Assembly (NCBI GenBank): GCA_018711625.1
Contig: DVID01000020.1
Coordinates: 1-64,000, forward strand
Origin: Candidatus Limicola stercorigallinarum
GTDB taxonomy: Bacteria > Actinomycetota > Coriobacteriia > Coriobacteriales > Coriobacteriaceae
DNA length: 64,000 nt
Direction of reading: 5' to 3'
The stretch's first letter is position 1; every line of letters starts with the position of its first letter. A model generated the notes under the pieces. That model was not told the origin of the DNA. It worked only from the letters and a program-made list of their open reading frames with translations, and made no database searches. Both the position numbers and the translations under genes were made by a program. Of the stretch, positions 10,292-18,950 are shown piece by piece.

Positions 10292-11122
10292 ATGGGAACC
10301 GAGGAGCTGAACGAAGAGGAAACCTACGTCGCAGGGACAGCCCCCTTGTTCTCGTTGCGCAACGCCCAGGTTGTGCGTTCTGGGCGAACCATTTTGGATG
10401 TACCCTCGTTTGACCTGGCAGAAGGCGAGCATGTGGCACTTCTGGGCCCAAACGGCGCCGGCAAGTCCACGTTTATTCAACTGCTCACCCGTGAGGTTTT
10501 CCCACTTTGGCGCGAAGAGCCGCCTGTGCGTTTTCGTGGTTCTGCCCGGCCCGAGCTTTCCGACATCAAGCGTAGCTTGGGCATTGTCTCAGCCACCATG
10601 CACGACCAAGTGCGCGTGCACCTGCCCGTAATCGATATTGTGTGCGGCGGCGCCTTCGGAACGCTGGGGTTGCCCCGCCATGTGGATGTAACGGACGAAG
10701 TGCGCGAACGCGGCATGGATGCCTTAGACCGCCTGGGCATTGCAGGCATCGCCGACCGCGATGTTATGACGCTCTCCACGGGCCAGGTGCGCCGCGCGCT
10801 CGTGGCGCGTGAGCTCATGAGCGACCCTTCAGTCCTCATTTTTGATGAACCCTGCACAGGGCTCGATCCCGAAGGCATGTATCACGTGCGCGATACCATG
10901 CGCATGCTTGCCGACGAAGGGCGCTCGGTGGTGCTGGTAACCCACTACCCCGAAGACATCATCCCTGCCATCAAGCGCGTGCTGCTTATCAAAGAGGCAA
11001 CCATCTTTGCCGATGGCCCCAAGGAGAAGCTGCTTACGAGCGAGACCATGAGTGAGCTCTTTGGCGTGCCTCTTGCTGTGGACGAATCGCACGGCTGGTA
11101 CTCGCTGCGTGGCCGCTACTGA
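10292..11122 (+). CDS. ABC transporter ATP-binding protein
   Basis: A 276-residue ABC ATPase. Walker A is GPNGAGKST, the signature is LSTGQ, Walker B is VLIFDEP and the switch histidine is in LVTHYPED. The N-terminal 20 residues are an acidic extension. The subfamily resembles stand-alone ATPases related to ModF/YlmA, in which no permease is encoded nearby; none is visible here. The gene therefore may code for a soluble or orphan ATPase, and its partner is unknown. AGGAAAGG precedes the ATG. It is divergent from ilvA with a 91-bp shared promoter region. Confidence 0.88.
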   Translation: MGTEELNEEETYVAGTAPLFSLRNAQVVRSGRTILDVPSFDLAEGEHVALLGPNGAGKSTFIQLLTREVFPLWREEPPVRFRGSARPELSDIKRSLGIVSATMHDQVRVHLPVIDIVCGGAFGTLGLPRHVDVTDEVRERGMDALDRLGIAGIADRDVMTLSTGQVRRALVARELMSDPSVLIFDEPCTGLDPEGMYHVRDTMRMLADEGRSVVLVTHYPEDIIPAIKRVLLIKEATIFADGPKEKLLTSETMSELFGVPLAVDESHGWYSLRGRY

Positions 11123-11419: not shown

Positions 11420-11596
11420 GGATTCCCCTTCGGTGCCCCATCGCGACAAAGCGCGGAACAGTTCAATGCGTTAAATGTCCCCAAGATTGTCACATATTAG
11501 TTAACCATAGACAACCTTTTGGAATCGCTATCTCACTCATCATTCCTATCTGATTGGTGTGTTTTTGTAAAACCCGTGAAACCGCGCGCAGATAGA

Positions 11597-11719: not shown

Positions 11720-14700
11720 ATGCCCCATAACAAAATAGCCCCGGTGCTCCTGGGCACTATCCTTGCCGCGAGCTTGGCGCCCGCTGGTGCCACGGCGGCC
11801 GATGAGCACATGGCGAAAACGGAAGCTCCCGTCATAAGCCCTGATACCGACAACAATACAGACGTACTGGAAAGCGTTGCAGAAAACGCTGCACATGATA
11901 CCGCTGTGACCGGGCAGACCGAACAGGCCACCACTTTCATCGTACGGGATGGCGAACGGCTGCCCTTTGACAACCTCACTGGCGCCGTCGAAGCCGCCCA
12001 GAACGGAGACGTCATTGAGCTTACGCACGACCAAGTGCTCGATAAAAAGCTCATCATCGCCGGCGGCCTTAAACTCACCTTGCGCGCCACGTCCAACGTG
12101 ACCATAACCCGTAGCGATTCCTTCACCACACAGGATGGCAAGCCTGCCGGCATGATCCTCGTTGAGGGCGGCTCGCAGCTCACGCTGGAGGGAACAGACA
12201 ACAACCTGCTCACCTTGCATGGTGAGAACAAGGACTCCAATGAGGCCATCATCACGCTGCGCAATTCGTCTACGCTCACCATGCGCAAGGGGTCTGTGAT
12301 TAACCAGGCGCATTGCTCTTGGAAACCATGGGGCGCTGTGTATGTGCACTCTGGTACCTTCACACTCGATGGAGGCGAGATTCGCAACGGCTTTGCGATG
12401 CACAATGCCGCAGTTGCAGTTGAGCCCGCCAGCACCTTTGAGATGCACGATGGCGTTATCTCGAGCAACCGCGCAACCTATTCCGAGACCATCGTATGGA
12501 CCAAAGGCACCGTGCGCATGACGGGCGGCTCCATTATGGACAACCGCTCAAACGTATCGAGCGATGCCGTGGTGCGCGTACTCGCGGGCGGCTCGTTTGC
12601 GTTTGAGGGCGGCACTATCGGCGATAACAAGCCCAACAACACCTTCGGTATGCACGTGGAAGCGGGTGGCTCGCTCACCATAGGCACCGGCGCGCGCTTT
12701 GAGGGAACCGACCGCATCAACCTCACAGCAGGAGCGCGCCTGCACTTTACGGGTGCACCCACCGCTCACAACACCAAAGACCCCGTTGAGGTCGTGCTTT
12801 CGGGCGCCTGGGACCACGGCACAACAGTGGCTACAACAACCTCGCCTGCGGTTGCGCAGGACGTTCTCACGCGTCTTTCGGTGAAGCGCGGCGGTGCGTC
12901 TGAGCACATGGCATCGGTGGGTGTCGACGCGGCCACCACTGGCTCCATCGCACTCGCCTCCCCCGATGTGGCAGAAGCTTTTGAGGCGCTCGACAATCCT
13001 TTTGCCGACCAGCTTGGACTCACCTTAAAAAGCGAACTCAGCGACCCCGATGCCTTCGAGCGCCTGCGCGAAACGGTGGAGCAGCGCTTCAACGGCATCG
13101 AGACGCCCGAGAAACAAGTGCGCCTGCAGCAGATCGAGCATCTTAAGCGCTACATCCCTTACCATCAAAATCACATCAAAGCAATCAAATCCTCGGTGAT
13201 TGAGCTCTCTGAGCTGGGCAATCCTGGCTCAGAGGCGCAGCGTACACAGCAGGGATACCAGTTTGACAACCTCGATGCCACGGGACTTTACCTCAAGCCA
13301 GGACAGATCAACGAGATCGTTGTCTACATTGAGGCGCAGGACCCCTCCAAGCTTTCCGTCGCGTGGCGGAAAGCTGGCGTCACCACAAGCAACGAATACA
13401 CCGCTCTCAATCTGCATCAACAATCTAAGCTTGCAAACGGGGCGAACCGCATCACCGTAGACCTCACGGGCAACAACCATGGCTCTATGCTCTACCTACG
13501 CAACGATTCCACGTCAAACCCCGCACGCGTGCGCATCGAAGCGGCAGACGCACCCTATGTAGAGAGCGGCTCCACCAATAGCACCGACGAAGATGGCTCC
13601 GCCACCCGCGGTGGCTCAACAACCAGCACCAACCCCCTGCTGGGAACAAGCCTGGAAGCACACCCCCTCTATGAGCATGATCCCGGGCACCCCGAGCGTT
13701 TCTGGACCTTTGTCCAGGATGTCAAGGCTCATGCCGAGCGTGTCCAAACCAACGGCATTTCCGACATGGCCCTGCTGCAGATGGGCGATGACGGGCATGC
13801 CCAGTTCTCCCTCAGGGCAACTGTGCTCGCCGAGGCATACCAACACATCACGTCCAAGCAACAGGCCGTGGAGTATATCGAGCGTTCGAACGAGGCTATT
13901 CAAGACCGCCTTGAGCTTTTCTGGACGTTCGATGGCTACAACACAAACAAGGCGGGTGGCCCCAACGCCGTTACCACCGCACGCGTGCACACAGCGTTTA
14001 CAAGCACCGTCACCCGGCCCTCGACCATGTACGCCTATATGCGCTACTACCACATGCCGGAGAGCTATGCGGCGTCGTTCCTCTCGGGCGAAAACATGTA
14101 CAGCTGGGGTATGTCGCACGAATACGGTCACATGCTCGACAACAATATCATCTCGGTGGGTGAGGAGACGAACAACCTCTACTCCTTGGCAGGTTCGCGC
14201 CAGGGTGGCATCGAGCAGCTAAAGGCCACAGGCAAGGCGTTCGTCCCCAAGGAGCATTACCACGAGAATGCCGTGAAGGCCACCGGGCGCCGCGACGAGG
14301 AGCTGGCGCGCATGGCGGCGGACCCCTCTTATGAACCCGACTGGATGAACAACAACAATTGGGGCACCTACATTTGGACGCACCTCGTTGCCTGGTGGAA
14401 CGGCCTGCATTTCTTTGATGACTGGGACTACAGCACCTACAACTTTGACGCGAGCCCCTACACGCAAGAAATTGCGGACGACGTGGAGTGCTACGGTGCC
14501 TACGGCGCGTCGGTGCGCATTCTGCGCAGCAACCCCGAGGCGGTGGAAACCGTCAGGCAGCTGGCGTCGGGCGCCGCAGCCACATCGGACAAGGCGGTCA
14601 AGTACAACCGCATCGCCGTCGCATTCACCATGGGCACCGGCTACAACTTCGCCGAATACCTCTATGAGCTGGGCGAACGCGACCTGACGGAGGAGGTGTT

Positions 14701-15817
14701 GGAGTATTGCGCGCAGTACCCCTCGATGCCGCGTGCCGTGCGCTACTTCTCACTCGACACCGATGCGGCAATTATCAACGGTGCGCAAACATACGCCGAG
14801 CTTGAAGGCGCGGCCAACAAGGTAGCGCCGAGCGTAACTGTGGAGCAGACCGAGAATGGGCGCGTGCATGTGACAGCCGCCATGGCAACAGAAGACCTTG
14901 CACGCGCCACAACCGCCTACGAGCTGTATCGCGACGGGGAACTCATTGGCTTTTCGCGCGACGGGTCATTTGACGTTGCAGCGCCTGAGGGCGCAGACAG
15001 CAGCGGTAACCCGGGAGCGCACGCAACGGCAGAGGCAAGCAGCGAGAATATGGGTGACACCGCGGTTGAAACCGATGGGCTCGCCGCATACACCGTAGTT
15101 GCCTACGACGTACGCCTAAACCCCAGCTGTGCCGCCAACCTGAACGGCCCTGTCTTCGACGAAGAGCTGCCAGATGATGAGAATGGCGAGTTGCCGGATG
15201 ACGAGAACGCTGGCAATGGCGGAGATAACGGCGCCGGCGGAGAAGAGTCCGAAGGGGACAATAACCCCGGGGGCGAAGGCTCCGACGATGACGACACCGA
15301 TAGCGATGGCGATGGTGATAATCAGGGTAAACCCGATGACGACGACAACTCCGACGATACCGAAAAACCTGGTGAGGATACCGGCTCGGGTGGCTCCGGC
15401 GACGATGAAAACAAGCCAGATAACGACCCAGAGGTCCCCAGCACGCCCGACGACGAAAGCGGAAGCGAGCAGCCCGACGGCGGCACTGATGATGAGCAGC
15501 CCGAGACGGGCACACCGGGAACAGGCGAGAACCCGCCCACCGGAAACGACGGCGTCGGCGACGATAGCACATCAACAGGCGAAGGCACAGGCGAGCCCAA
15601 CGGCGGATCTCGGCCTGAGGGCACCACGCCAAACAAAGACGTCGCAGGCGGAAGCGCTGAGAACACCAGTGCAAACGGTAGCTCCGCAGCCGGAGGCATC
15701 ACCGGCGCACTCGCACAAACGGGCGACACATCACTTGTGCTCGCGATCATAGCCGCTGGAGGCTCCGCCATCGCCTTCCTCGGCGCCGCCATCGCCCGAC
15801 GCTTCCGAAAAACGTAG
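11720..15817 (+). CDS. Cell-wall anchored M60-like (enhancin-type) metallopeptidase
   Basis: A 1365-residue secreted protein. Residues 1-27 are a signal peptide ending in GATA-AD. Residues about 80-340 have glycine-rich repeated strands (GGEIRNG, GGSIMDN, GGTIGDN) typical of a right-handed beta-helix. Residues about 510-1000 form an M60-like domain: a jelly-roll start (ATGLYLKPGQINEIVVYIEA), then the zinc motif HEYGH at 800-804 with E815 as likely third ligand, fitting HExxHx(8-28)E. An FN3-like region lies near 1030-1120. Residues 1146-1325 are an acidic Asp/Gly/Asn linker, followed by LAQTG (1331-1335), a membrane segment and RRFRKT. M60-like enzymes cleave O-glycosylated mucins. Sortase class E recognises LAxTG. 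Mucin processing at the cell surface is therefore the likely role. Confidence 0.92.
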   Translation: MPHNKIAPVLLGTILAASLAPAGATAADEHMAKTEAPVISPDTDNNTDVLESVAENAAHDTAVTGQTEQATTFIVRDGERLPFDNLTGAVEAAQNGDVIELTHDQVLDKKLIIAGGLKLTLRATSNVTITRSDSFTTQDGKPAGMILVEGGSQLTLEGTDNNLLTLHGENKDSNEAIITLRNSSTLTMRKGSVINQAHCSWKPWGAVYVHSGTFTLDGGEIRNGFAMHNAAVAVEPASTFEMHDGVISSNRATYSETIVWTKGTVRMTGGSIMDNRSNVSSDAVVRVLAGGSFAFEGGTIGDNKPNNTFGMHVEAGGSLTIGTGARFEGTDRINLTAGARLHFTGAPTAHNTKDPVEVVLSGAWDHGTTVATTTSPAVAQDVLTRLSVKRGGASEHMASVGVDAATTGSIALASPDVAEAFEALDNPFADQLGLTLKSELSDPDAFERLRETVEQRFNGIETPEKQVRLQQIEHLKRYIPYHQNHIKAIKSSVIELSELGNPGSEAQRTQQGYQFDNLDATGLYLKPGQINEIVVYIEAQDPSKLSVAWRKAGVTTSNEYTALNLHQQSKLANGANRITVDLTGNNHGSMLYLRNDSTSNPARVRIEAADAPYVESGSTNSTDEDGSATRGGSTTSTNPLLGTSLEAHPLYEHDPGHPERFWTFVQDVKAHAERVQTNGISDMALLQMGDDGHAQFSLRATVLAEAYQHITSKQQAVEYIERSNEAIQDRLELFWTFDGYNTNKAGGPNAVTTARVHTAFTSTVTRPSTMYAYMRYYHMPESYAASFLSGENMYSWGMSHEYGHMLDNNIISVGEETNNLYSLAGSRQGGIEQLKATGKAFVPKEHYHENAVKATGRRDEELARMAADPSYEPDWMNNNNWGTYIWTHLVAWWNGLHFFDDWDYSTYNFDASPYTQEIADDVECYGAYGASVRILRSNPEAVETVRQLASGAAATSDKAVKYNRIAVAFTMGTGYNFAEYLYELGERDLTEEVLEYCAQYPSMPRAVRYFSLDTDAAIINGAQTYAELEGAANKVAPSVTVEQTENGRVHVTAAMATEDLARATTAYELYRDGELIGFSRDGSFDVAAPEGADSSGNPGAHATAEASSENMGDTAVETDGLAAYTVVAYDVRLNPSCAANLNGPVFDEELPDDENGELPDDENAGNGGDNGAGGEESEGDNNPGGEGSDDDDTDSDGDGDNQGKPDDDDNSDDTEKPGEDTGSGGSGDDENKPDNDPEVPSTPDDESGSEQPDGGTDDEQPETGTPGTGENPPTGNDGVGDDSTSTGEGTGEPNGGSRPEGTTPNKDVAGGSAENTSANGSSAAGGITGALAQTGDTSLVLAIIAAGGSAIAFLGAAIARRFRKT

Positions 15818-15876: not shown

Positions 15877-16425
15877 CTAGCCAAGATAGGCCAAGAATGC
15901 ATCGGTCTGCGCGGCAAGAGCGGCACGATCCTCCTCCGAAAGCGCAAGCACATCGGTTGTGAACGCAGCTCTATCAAGCCGCACGCCCGTCTGCGGATCT
16001 TCCATGAAGTCCGCCCGGACAGCCGCCATAAGCTTGCCGACCATCGCGCGTGTACCCGCACCCGCCGATCCGCCAGCAGCCGAACTCACCGCGACCTTCT
16101 TGCCCACAATCACCGCCGTTGATCGGTCGCCTGCCGTTAGCGGGCGGCTCAGCCAGTCGATAAGGTTTTTGAGGACGGCTGGATAGCTGTAGTTGTATTC
16201 CGGGCTGAATATCCACATGCCGTCCGCCTCCTGCACCTCGCGACGCACGCGTGTCACTGCCTCAGGTGCAGGAAACTCAATGTCTTGGTTCATGAACGGC
16301 ACATCGGCATACTCGAGGAAGCTCACCTCGGCACGCCCTTCAAGCAGGCGGGCTGCTTCCTGGGCAAGTTGACGATTGAACGAACGCTCTCGCAGAGAGC
16401 CAACGACGAACAGAATGCGTTTCAT
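15877..16425 (-). CDS. NADPH-dependent FMN reductase family protein
   Basis: A 182-residue flavodoxin-like reductase. The N-terminus ILFVVGSLRERSFNRQLA is the FMN phosphate-binding loop (GSxRxxSxN), and SPEYNYSYPAVLKNLIDWLSR is the conserved flavin-ring contact motif. Such enzymes reduce FMN, quinones, azo dyes or chromate with NAD(P)H in the cytoplasm. The length is normal. It is convergent with the peptidase gene upstream. The substrate is not predictable. Confidence 0.92.
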   Translation of the reverse strand: MKRILFVVGSLRERSFNRQLAQEAARLLEGRAEVSFLEYADVPFMNQDIEFPAPEAVTRVRREVQEADGMWIFSPEYNYSYPAVLKNLIDWLSRPLTAGDRSTAVIVGKKVAVSSAAGGSAGAGTRAMVGKLMAAVRADFMEDPQTGVRLDRAAFTTDVLALSEEDRAALAAQTDAFLAYLG

Positions 16426-16524
16426 GGGGTCTCCTCATTACTTCACAAACAAGAACAGGTAAACAGAGATGTTCCTCTTGTACCCGTCGATAGACAATGT
16501 GAGAAAGCAGGAGCGGCACCAAAC

Positions 16525-16552
16525 GCAAAAGAGCCGGTCTTGCGACCGGCTC
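16525..16552 (-). terminator. Terminator of tRNA-Gly
   Basis: GAGCCGGTC and GACCGGCTC pair with a 4-base loop; on the minus strand the stem is followed by TTTTGCGTTT. It lies 12 bases downstream of the tRNA 3' end. Confidence 0.85.
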
Positions 16553-16563
16553 CGTTCGTGCAA

Positions 16564-16639
16564 TGGAGCGGACAACGGGGCTCGAACCCGCGACCCCAAC
16601 CTTGGCAAGGTTGTGCTCTACCAACTGAGCCATGTCCGC
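16564..16639 (-). tRNA. tRNA-Gly(GCC)
   Basis: Seventy-six bases including an encoded CCA. On the minus strand it starts GCGGACA, pairing with TGTCCGC before TCCA. The D-loop reads AGTTGGTAGAGC, the anticodon loop is TTGCCAA with anticodon GCC, and the T-loop is GGTTCGAACCCC-like (GGGTTCGAACCCC). All four arms form. A terminator follows immediately. Confidence 0.97.
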
Positions 16640-16788
16640 GTGCGAGGTAAAACCTTACGCGATTTTGCCCCGGTGGCAAAGCCCCTCCCAAAGTCTCCAT
16701 GATTTTGCGACCGACTGCAAAGCTTTGACGCCCCAAGGCGCCGGAGACCGGTCCGCAATCGGTCCAGACCAAACGCCAGCCGCGCCCC

Positions 16789-17742
16789 TTACGTTTGGAA
16801 GCGCGCGAGCTCGGCAGGGTGTTCAGTCGTAAAGACTCTCTCCACCGCCTGCTGATACTCGTCTACCGTGCGCGCCTTTCTTACCGCACGATGCACCGCG
16901 AGCGGATTGGCAAACGCGAACTTGGCGTAGAACCACCACTCTTTCATGCGAAACACCGCATTGCCACCAATTTCTTCCTGATAGGCAGAGAAGAGCTGAT
17001 TGTGAAAACGCTCGAGTTCGGCCAATGTGGCGGCGGCGCCCCCGCGGAGCATGCGCGCCAGCGCTGGGTTGGTCAGAATGCCCCTGCCAATCATCACATG
17101 ACGCGTTTCTGGATAAGCTGCCACGAGCTCCTCAAAGGTGTCGCATGCCACGATATCCCCGTTATATGCCACAGGAAACGGCGCCTCCTGCAACGTCTTG
17201 CCATACAGCTCCCACCGCGGAACACCCTGGTAGCGGTCTTTTTGAACGCGTGGATGGACAATGAGCTCCGCCAAGGGATGGCGACAATACATCGCAAGGA
17301 TGCGACCGTATTCCTCATCATCCTGTATGCCAAGGCGCGTTTTCACCGACACCGGTACGGCGGACCGGGCGCACACCTCCTCCAAGAAGGCGTCAAGCTC
17401 GTCTACATGGCGCAGGAAGCCCGCACCCTTCCCCTTGGACACAACCGTACCCGAAGGGCACCCCACATTGAGGTTGACCTCTTGGTATCCCATCTCAGCC
17501 AAGAGCTGCGAGGCCCACACAAACTCATCGGCCTGCTTGGTAAGCAACTGCGGCACCACGTTAAGACCTTGGTTGTTAGCAGGGTCAATCTCGCGCATGG
17601 CGCGCTTGCCAAACGAGCTGCCCACACGCGGAGGGGCAAGAAACGGCGTGTAATAGCGATCAAGCGGCCCAAAACATGCCGCATGAACACGGCGAAACAC
17701 ATGGCCCGTAAGCCCCTCCATAGGGGCAAGCGAGAACATCAT
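16789..17742 (-). CDS. tRNA-dihydrouridine synthase family protein
   Basis: A 317-residue FMN enzyme that reduces uridine to dihydrouridine in tRNA D-loops. Diagnostic segments are SLAPMEGLTG at the N-terminus, NLNVGCPSGTVVSKGKGAGFL with the catalytic cysteine, SVKTRLG with FMN-contact lysine, HPR with the conserved histidine, YNGDI and MIGRG. The gene is full length. The start at 17742 (or 17739, tandem ATGs) has GGGAG 10 bases upstream and begins right at the barrel, whereas the longer frame adds 35 non-homologous residues. The Dus subclass is not assigned. Confidence 0.93.
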   Translation of the reverse strand: MMFSLAPMEGLTGHVFRRVHAACFGPLDRYYTPFLAPPRVGSSFGKRAMREIDPANNQGLNVVPQLLTKQADEFVWASQLLAEMGYQEVNLNVGCPSGTVVSKGKGAGFLRHVDELDAFLEEVCARSAVPVSVKTRLGIQDDEEYGRILAMYCRHPLAELIVHPRVQKDRYQGVPRWELYGKTLQEAPFPVAYNGDIVACDTFEELVAAYPETRHVMIGRGILTNPALARMLRGGAAATLAELERFHNQLFSAYQEEIGGNAVFRMKEWWFYAKFAFANPLAVHRAVRKARTVDEYQQAVERVFTTEHPAELARFQT

Positions 17743-17794
17743 GTATTGGTTTCTCCCTTCATGCACAAACCTCACGTGCACAGTCCTCCAGAGA

Positions 17795-18766
17795 CTACGG
17801 CTTACACGCGCCGCAAGGATCGTACCCTTGGGCAATAAGGTCGTCACGCGTGGTGGTCACGGTCTGCTTGTTCTTTTCGCTCATATGATCCACCGAGCCG
17901 CACTCGGGATAGTGGAACTTCTTGCTGCTGGTATTGAGGATATAGGTGCGCTCATCGGCCTCTTCCGCCGGTACACGTTCTTGCGAGACGGTGCTTTCCT
18001 CGCGCCAGCTCTCCCCCGTTGCATAGTCAATGCCAACACCCGGTTGAACATTAAAGCAGTACACGTTGAAGGCAACTCCCATACCTGCATCATCGAGCGA
18101 GTAGGCCTCCATATGGACACCCCGGCAGACAAGCTCGTCGCCCACAAACACGGGTGTCACGCGCATGAGCACGCGCCCGCCCGAGCGATCAACGTAGGCG
18201 GCAACCTCGTTTTCGAAGGGAAGCATGCCTTCGGTGTTCATGTAGCGTGTGCCCGTAACAAGGTTCTCCTCGTTAGCGTTTTCGGCCGTGAGCTGCCAAC
18301 CGATGAGGTGGCAACGGTTGTAGAGATACTGGCCATCAACGAGGTCATCGTAGCGCACGGTATGCCAGCCCGTTGGCTTGACCATGCCAATGCTTTCGCG
18401 CTTCTCGCCCTCGGCGGGCATGGTGGAAGGGCTTACGACCGCGACGGCAGTGCCACAGCGACCAAGCGCATCAAGAGGCGCGTAGGACTCGCTCTGCGAG
18501 GGAAGATCCGCCTCAGAAAGATCGGGAACGTTATCGTTAAGCACCACATAGGGGCTACCGTTATAAGTGGGAAGCTGGTCAGAGTCGAGCGCCGAGGAAG
18601 TATCAAGGGTCTCAACAGGAGCTTCTGCAAGCCCGGAGGCCTGTGGGCCAGGTGCATCTTCCGAACATGCCGGAAGCGCCACGAGAACAAGGGCAACGAG
18701 AACGGCGCGTGCAAAGGCACGAGCCTTGCGTCCCACAACGTCCCAAGGCCTTTTATCGTTCCTCAT
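17795..18766 (-). CDS. DNA/RNA non-specific endonuclease, lipoprotein
   Basis: A 323-residue exported nuclease. Residues 18-35 are a hydrophobic signal ending in the lipobox LPAC, so it should be lipid-anchored outside the membrane. The nuclease core contains YNRCHLIGWQLT (RCH in place of the DRGH-type active site), then NLVTGTRYMN, as in the Endonuclea_NS_2 group. The C-terminal 50 residues (FHYPECGSV, then DPCGACKP) are a cysteine-containing module often found at the end of such nucleases. Family members degrade extracellular nucleic acid for nutrition or cope with DNA uptake. It is upstream of dus and divergent from another lipoprotein gene. Confidence 0.9.
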   Translation of the reverse strand: MRNDKRPWDVVGRKARAFARAVLVALVLVALPACSEDAPGPQASGLAEAPVETLDTSSALDSDQLPTYNGSPYVVLNDNVPDLSEADLPSQSESYAPLDALGRCGTAVAVVSPSTMPAEGEKRESIGMVKPTGWHTVRYDDLVDGQYLYNRCHLIGWQLTAENANEENLVTGTRYMNTEGMLPFENEVAAYVDRSGGRVLMRVTPVFVGDELVCRGVHMEAYSLDDAGMGVAFNVYCFNVQPGVGIDYATGESWREESTVSQERVPAEEADERTYILNTSSKKFHYPECGSVDHMSEKNKQTVTTTRDDLIAQGYDPCGACKP

Positions 18767-18950
18767 CTAGTGCCTCCCCTCGACAAACGTTGCTTGATTA
18801 TCTACTCGATACGGTTCTTACGCGAGCAGCATATGGCGTATGGTCACATCCGCGGGCGTTGCGTCTTTTGCCATCAGCTGGAAAACCACAAAAATCGCCT
18901 CGTCCACAGCTAGAATGGTGGAAATCGGCCAAAGAGAGCAAGGAGCCCTT

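Follow-up and report, generated by a model that had tools for sequence, protein, structure and literature searches.

A candidate mucin-directed M60-type surface peptidase with a predicted N-terminal right-handed beta-helix in a member of the Coriobacteriaceae

Does an open reading frame on contig DVID01000020.1 of Candidatus Limicola stercorigallinarum (Coriobacteriaceae; assembly GCA_018711625.1) encode a surface enzyme that cuts mucins, and what would a beta-helix placed in front of the peptidase contribute to it? The frame runs from an ATG at 11720 to a stop at 15817 on the forward strand of the stretch that we analysed (the window, 64,000 nucleotides) and encodes 1365 residues. A sequence-only reading of this DNA had proposed a mucin-directed surface M60 enzyme, and the frame, the zinc-site residues H800, E801, H804 and E815, and the LAQTG motif (at 1331) lie exactly where it had placed them. 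We regard the protein as a likely secreted, surface-located zinc O-glycopeptidase of the M60 (ZmpA/B/C) type that would act on mucin-type glycoproteins, a view that rests on sequence comparison and structure prediction. Collinsella-type bacteria are common gut residents, and this is a clear candidate mucin-cutting surface enzyme for the source family; literature searches joining M60-like, mucinase with peptidase, or mucin with cell wall-anchored, to Collinsella found no paper.

The peptidase assignment was supported at several levels. The Pfam family Peptidase_M60 (PF13402) matched the protein with 32.2 bits (cut-off 25.8), partially, over profile positions 79-225 of 275; M60-like_N scored 13.3 bits, under its cut-off of 23, and a scan of the protein against NCBIfam matched no family. 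The gluzincin motif HEXXHX(8,28)E, described for the M60-like domain as defined by Nakjang and others in 2012 (PMC3267712), is present as H800, E801 and H804, followed by E815 at +11. The longer pattern W-x3-HExxH-x(7,27)-E-x3-N occurred once in the six-frame window, at this gene; when residues 28-1145 were shuffled it arose in only 2 of 20000 trials, against 1393 of 20000 for HExxH alone. Both WG-x2-HE-x-GH and E-x-TNN were invariant in all 20 aligned homologues, down to the most distant ones, whose identity with the window protein is about 18-21%. With a profile of 11 homologues, the best PDB sequences were ZmpA (E 2.6e-15), ZmpB (1.6e-11) and ZmpC (3.9e-10), the M60 O-glycopeptidases of Clostridium perfringens.

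Structure prediction pointed the same way. An AlphaFold2 model of residues 480-1140, built from 20 sequences, reached a predicted local distance difference test (pLDDT) score of 84.5 and a predicted template modelling (pTM) score of 0.84, and its predicted fold is that of M60. In a Foldseek search with this model, ranks 1-11 were the M60 modules of ZmpC, ZmpA and ZmpB (E 1.6e-24 to 4.5e-22; TM on the target 0.81 for the best match), and VIA aligned the same enzymes over 478-496 residues with Z 25.0-26.7, the top row (Z 27.4, tied) being an uncharacterised Bacillus anthracis protein aligned over 389 residues. The FN3-like region that had been read from the sequence is present, and in the model it is the end domain of the M60 module rather than a separate addition: on superposition, its strands matched the end domains both of ZmpA/B/C and of endo-beta-N-acetylglucosaminidase A (for the latter 2vtf, Z 8.4, 80 residues).

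Two further residues bear on the substrate. In AM0627 of Akkermansia, whose zinc site is His325/Glu326/His329/Glu343, Trp321 and Asn347 bind the N-acetylgalactosamine (GalNAc) of the substrate and are critical; the ZmpB equivalents are Trp752 and Asn775, and IMPa has Gln instead of the Asn (PMC9325726). Here W796 stands four residues before the first zinc-binding His and N819 four residues after the zinc-binding Glu, the same spacing from the zinc ligands as the GalNAc-contact Trp and Asn of AM0627 and ZmpB. The architecture, zinc motif, fold and two GalNAc-contact residues came from the computation; activity and substrate we infer. In the mechanism we propose, H800, H804 and E815 would hold the zinc, E801 would activate the water, and W796 and N819 would belong to a pocket that reads GalNAc on Ser or Thr, so that the bond cut would be the peptide bond adjoining an O-glycan of mucin-like proteins. 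The beta-helix and the acidic stalk would keep the enzyme off the wall, the helix perhaps also docking on a ligand, and the C-terminus would be anchored through an L[A/T/P]xTGD motif and a membrane segment.

Sorting to the cell wall is plausible from the sequence, wall anchoring of the enzyme is probable, and the attachment would be covalent. An LxxTGD motif, a hydrophobic run and a basic tail were found in all 12 C-termini read, this protein's own (with the tail RRFRKT) included, and the residue after the Leu was A in eight, T in two and P in two. The sequence-only reading had called this signal class-E-type. Class E sortases recognise LAXTG (PMC5148588), which the LAQTG of this protein fits, and orthologues also carry LTxTG and LPxTG. 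The class E label was not supported: a search for a class E sortase (NF033747) in the source assembly (1,955,970 bases across 49 contigs, completeness 95.24%) returned no match at E up to 10, the single Pfam sortase match in this genome is class-B-like, and in the orthologues the Leu is followed by A, T or P. A DNA pattern search of the source genome for other anchored proteins, covering L[A/P]xTGD only, gave seven matches, among which, by eye, this protein's alone is C-terminal with a hydrophobic run and a basic tail. In two relatives, a sortase gene and an adjacent gene for an LPGTG protein lie divergent to the M60 gene (locus L001, 2565-5102; locus L002, 1565-4165); Pfam identified the sortase and a SpaA-type pilin in L001, and the L002 pilin was judged by eye. 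This pair was not seen beside the gene in the window.

Several observations weigh against a wall-anchored O-glycopeptidase. The GalNAc-site Arg, found at Asn+15 in AM0627, ZmpB and ZmpC and at +16 in BT4244 of Bacteroides, is absent at that place in the sequence, where position 834 is Leu; R827, at N819+8, may or may not stand in for it. A single-sequence PDB search was weak (best E 0.0011), and the full-length model (residues 66-1140, built from 11 sequences) was poorly confident over M60, with the helix confident and the remainder poor (mean pLDDT 68.4, pTM 0.45). The sorting signal scored 10 bits, under the Pfam anchor cut-off of 20, the relative in Bifidobacterium jacchi lacks such a signal at its end, and the sole sortase scored 142 bits against TIGR03064 (class B; E 1.8e-41), under the NCBIfam cut-off of 153.75.

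The enzyme could act instead on glycoproteins of its own or other bacteria, in surface maturation or competition, and not on host mucin. The sequence names no host source of the substrate, and the divergent pilin and sortase pair adjoins the gene in two relatives. However, the M60 enzymes described have host O-glycoproteins as their substrates and typically come from microbes associated with animals (PMC3267712, PMC9325726), and the flanks compared at 14 loci, which differ among most relatives, showed no conserved partner gene; we consider a bacterial substrate unlikely.

A mucin-directed enzyme of this type resembles several known proteins, and it is the N-terminal part that sets it apart. 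It shares with ZmpA/B/C a catalytic module with an N-terminal strand domain and the FN3-like end domain, the zinc motif and the GalNAc-site Trp and Asn, but is only about 20% identical to them and lacks the GalNAc-site Arg at its usual place. ZmpB carries carbohydrate-binding modules (CBM32 and CBM51; PDB titles 7jfs and 7js4), whereas Pfam found neither here and a beta-helix stands in front. The mucinases AM0627 and BT4244 have the M60 fold, the zinc site and residues equivalent to the Trp and the Asn (Z 23-24 and 18-19, respectively; PMC9325726), although the AM0627 match is shorter (391-393 residues), and the accessible part of that source mentions a beta-helix for neither. M60 enzymes are also known from Bacteroides caccae (PMC13355702). 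The literature on PF13402 with a beta-helix yielded Svx only, a Pectobacterium protein in which a gluzincin peptidase close to ZmpB is joined to a beta-helix (PMC9266454). The Svx helix, however, is left-handed, of the hexapeptide acyltransferase type, and belongs to a secreted plant-pathogen protein, whereas the helix here is right-handed, N-terminal and on a protein with a probable surface anchor. The enzyme type is known; what is new is the variation in architecture, in which a right-handed beta-helix takes the place of the carbohydrate-binding modules of the Clostridium enzyme.

The model supports the beta-helix that had been read from the sequence ahead of the peptidase, predicting a right-handed coil of three sheets from about residue 67 to 413, with ten-residue pLDDT blocks of 64-97, mostly above 80, over residues 66-415. 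The 50 PDB chains listed as matches to it were mainly right-handed beta-helix proteins (Z 18.2-21.4, sequence identity 8-18%) and included Vag8, an autotransporter passenger with the best score, PL6 alginate lyases, alginate epimerases, tailspike depolymerases and an Akkermansia blood-antigen enzyme. Many of these top matches are carbohydrate-active, and the helix is conserved (54-70% identity to the window protein in nine helix-M60 orthologues), as expected if it were itself an enzyme of the polysaccharide lyase or glycosidase type, so that one protein would hold two enzymes, one for trimming glycans and one for cutting the peptide. We find this rather improbable: the top row is Vag8, the identities are low, no catalytic residues were identified in the helix, a helix profile found nothing among PDB sequences (E 0.89), and adhesin-like proteins that carry BspA repeats or Cna_B domains have similar helices. 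A search for a known CAZy or Pfam family gave nothing at the cut-off in any of 11 helix members. That the whole protein is an adhesin, with the peptidase fold mainly a glycan-binding head of little or no catalysis, would suit the adhesin-like beta-helix, stalk and anchor but is very improbable, given that the zinc ligands and the catalytic Glu are kept without exception in the 20 homologues.

If the protein is an M60 O-glycopeptidase, the helix may serve to place it. Similar beta-helices also occur on surface proteins of the order that are not peptidases, which makes the helix look like an exchangeable surface module: outside the family, the proteins matched by the profile carry BspA-type repeats or Cna_B domains, and their ends are of the sortase type. 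Three of these (L032, L044 and L035; E 6.7e-19 to 3.4e-12 with the same profile) share the GGxISxN rungs, the signal peptide and a C-terminus of the LPGTGD, IPETGD or TPYTGD type, but their helix is joined to BspA-type leucine-rich repeats or Cna_B, without a peptidase and without the CSWxPW loop described below; L032 and L044 combine BspA-type repeats, this type of helix, a Cna_B domain and a sortase-type end. The sequence-only reading had called a helix in this position unusual, which is right for the fusion, as helix-M60 proteins are rare, but not for the helix itself, which has common counterparts on Coriobacteriales surface proteins. A loop on the helix, CSWxPW, was kept in 13 of 13 main-lineage members read (the window protein, L001-L006, L014, L015, L018, L019, L021 and L040); the helix-M60 proteins most remote from these (L007 and L043) lack it, as do five helix-only proteins (L032, L033, L035, L044 and L045). 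By its conservation the loop could be a ligand-binding site, or merely a lineage trait, and ligand docking by the helix, beyond a spacer role, is only suggested. A tentative extension, which we hold to be possible but doubtful, is that the helix is a dedicated mucin- or glycan-docking module in place of the Clostridium CBM32 and CBM51, which binds through CSWxPW and guides the tethered peptidase along stretches dense in glycans; the result would be a Coriobacteriaceae-specific, mucin-aimed protease built from the order's own adhesin domain. The helix offers a test case for whether an adhesin fold can replace carbohydrate-binding modules in aiming a mucinase.

The helix-M60 fusion is, by sequence comparison, an orthologous family, common to 12 of the 65 genomes of the source family and rare beyond it; it gives a ready genetic marker, with which the mucin-cutting question can be tested in the family. 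In one of these 12 (G063) the gene is truncated at a contig end, and in another, Candidatus Collinsella stercoripullorum (G043, contig C51, locus L005), it is split in two frames, by decay or assembly error. Outside the family, full-length proteins were found in two genomes of the order (G527 and G660) and in Bifidobacterium jacchi. Within the order, 64 of 395 genomes matched the core profile, mostly over the helix part alone, and a draw of 396 genomes of the phylum gave nine matches, five full-length (all in the family) and four to the helix only. Of 392 genomes of the order, 36 have M60 itself, each with a single gene, and 13 of these are helix-M60 (11 in the family, plus G527 and G660); in the remaining 23, the roughly 350-750 residues before HExxH, read in 21 (all but G639 and G696), gave no match to this helix. 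In one genus (g246), a beta-helix-like stretch lies C-terminal to M60 (L059, L063 and G462 contig C70; weak helix matches after the peptidase in L059 and L063, E 8e-4 and 2.6e-4), a second, separate pairing of these folds.

Among nine orthologues of the source family, identity was 64-78% in the M60 core (641-1030) and 48-70% in the signal peptide; close protein relatives belong to Collinsella species or to Coriobacteriaceae bins. In a tree of 14 M60 modules, the window protein grouped with L001, which is from another genus (support 97/99), rather than with the two genomes of its own genus; for its own genus the tree needs three changes, at least two of them forced. Because six of 11 inner branches are open and shuffled labels fit as well (500/500 for g1), this tree does not separate transfer from repeated loss. 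Alignments A1-A5 were made without L006/L024, in which a contig end cuts the gene; L005 was left out of A1-A4 and entered A5 with its downstream open piece only, and of the 21 loci with other M60 proteins of the order, six, picked by hand, went into A5.

Table 1. Features of the predicted surface peptidase gene, in window coordinates
Feature	Residues	Position	Strand	Basis
Whole gene: cell-surface M60 peptidase with N-terminal beta-helix	1-1365	11720..15817	+	1365 aa; ATG and orthologue starts
Predicted signal peptide, MPHNKIAPVLLGTILAASLAPAGATAA	1-27	11720..11800	+	Cleavage site judged by eye
Predicted right-handed parallel beta-helix	67-413	11918..12958	+	AlphaFold2 model and PDB comparison
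CSWKPW loop, candidate ligand site on helix	199-204	12314..12331	+	Conservation
Predicted helical linker	about 414-491	12959..13192	+	Model secondary structure; pLDDT <50 near end
M60 module, ZmpA/B/C type, FN3-like end domain included	about 492-1140	13193..15139	+	Pfam, profile, model, Foldseek, VIA
Predicted active site, W796-x3-H800-E801-x2-H804 ... E815-x-T-N-N819	796-819	14105..14176	+	Motif and alignment
FN3-like domain	about 1023-1140	14786..15139	+	M60 module model and superposition
Acidic low-complexity stalk	1146-1325	15155..15694	+	57 D+E, 5 K+R of 180
LAQTGD sorting signal (1331-1336), hydrophobic segment, Arg/Lys tail		15710..15814	+	Sequence reading

The acidic stalk proposed earlier is borne out by its composition (Table 1). 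The mechanically called frame opens at a TTG at 11519, but we place the start at the ATG because a ribosome-binding motif, GAAAGGA, stands just upstream of it and because orthologues have an equivalent ATG, preceded by a GAAAGGA-type motif and followed by a similar signal peptide. Upstream of the gene there is one weak sigma-70-like promoter match, where 0.3 would be expected by chance. This was the only M60 gene found in the source genome, and a tblastn search of a plasmid collection gave no matches. In a comparison of flanks at 14 loci, weak for L014-L043 with just about 1.2-1.5 kb of flank each, neighbours differed among most relatives and no gene-cluster partner was conserved. The few common items were the FMN reductase, shared with L003, a frame that overlaps window 17741-18913, shared with L014, and a gene at the start of the window, shared with L006. 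The neighbours in the window are ordinary, with an ABC ATPase upstream (10292-11122) and an FMN reductase, a tRNA-Gly (gcc) and a dihydrouridine synthase downstream (15877-17847).

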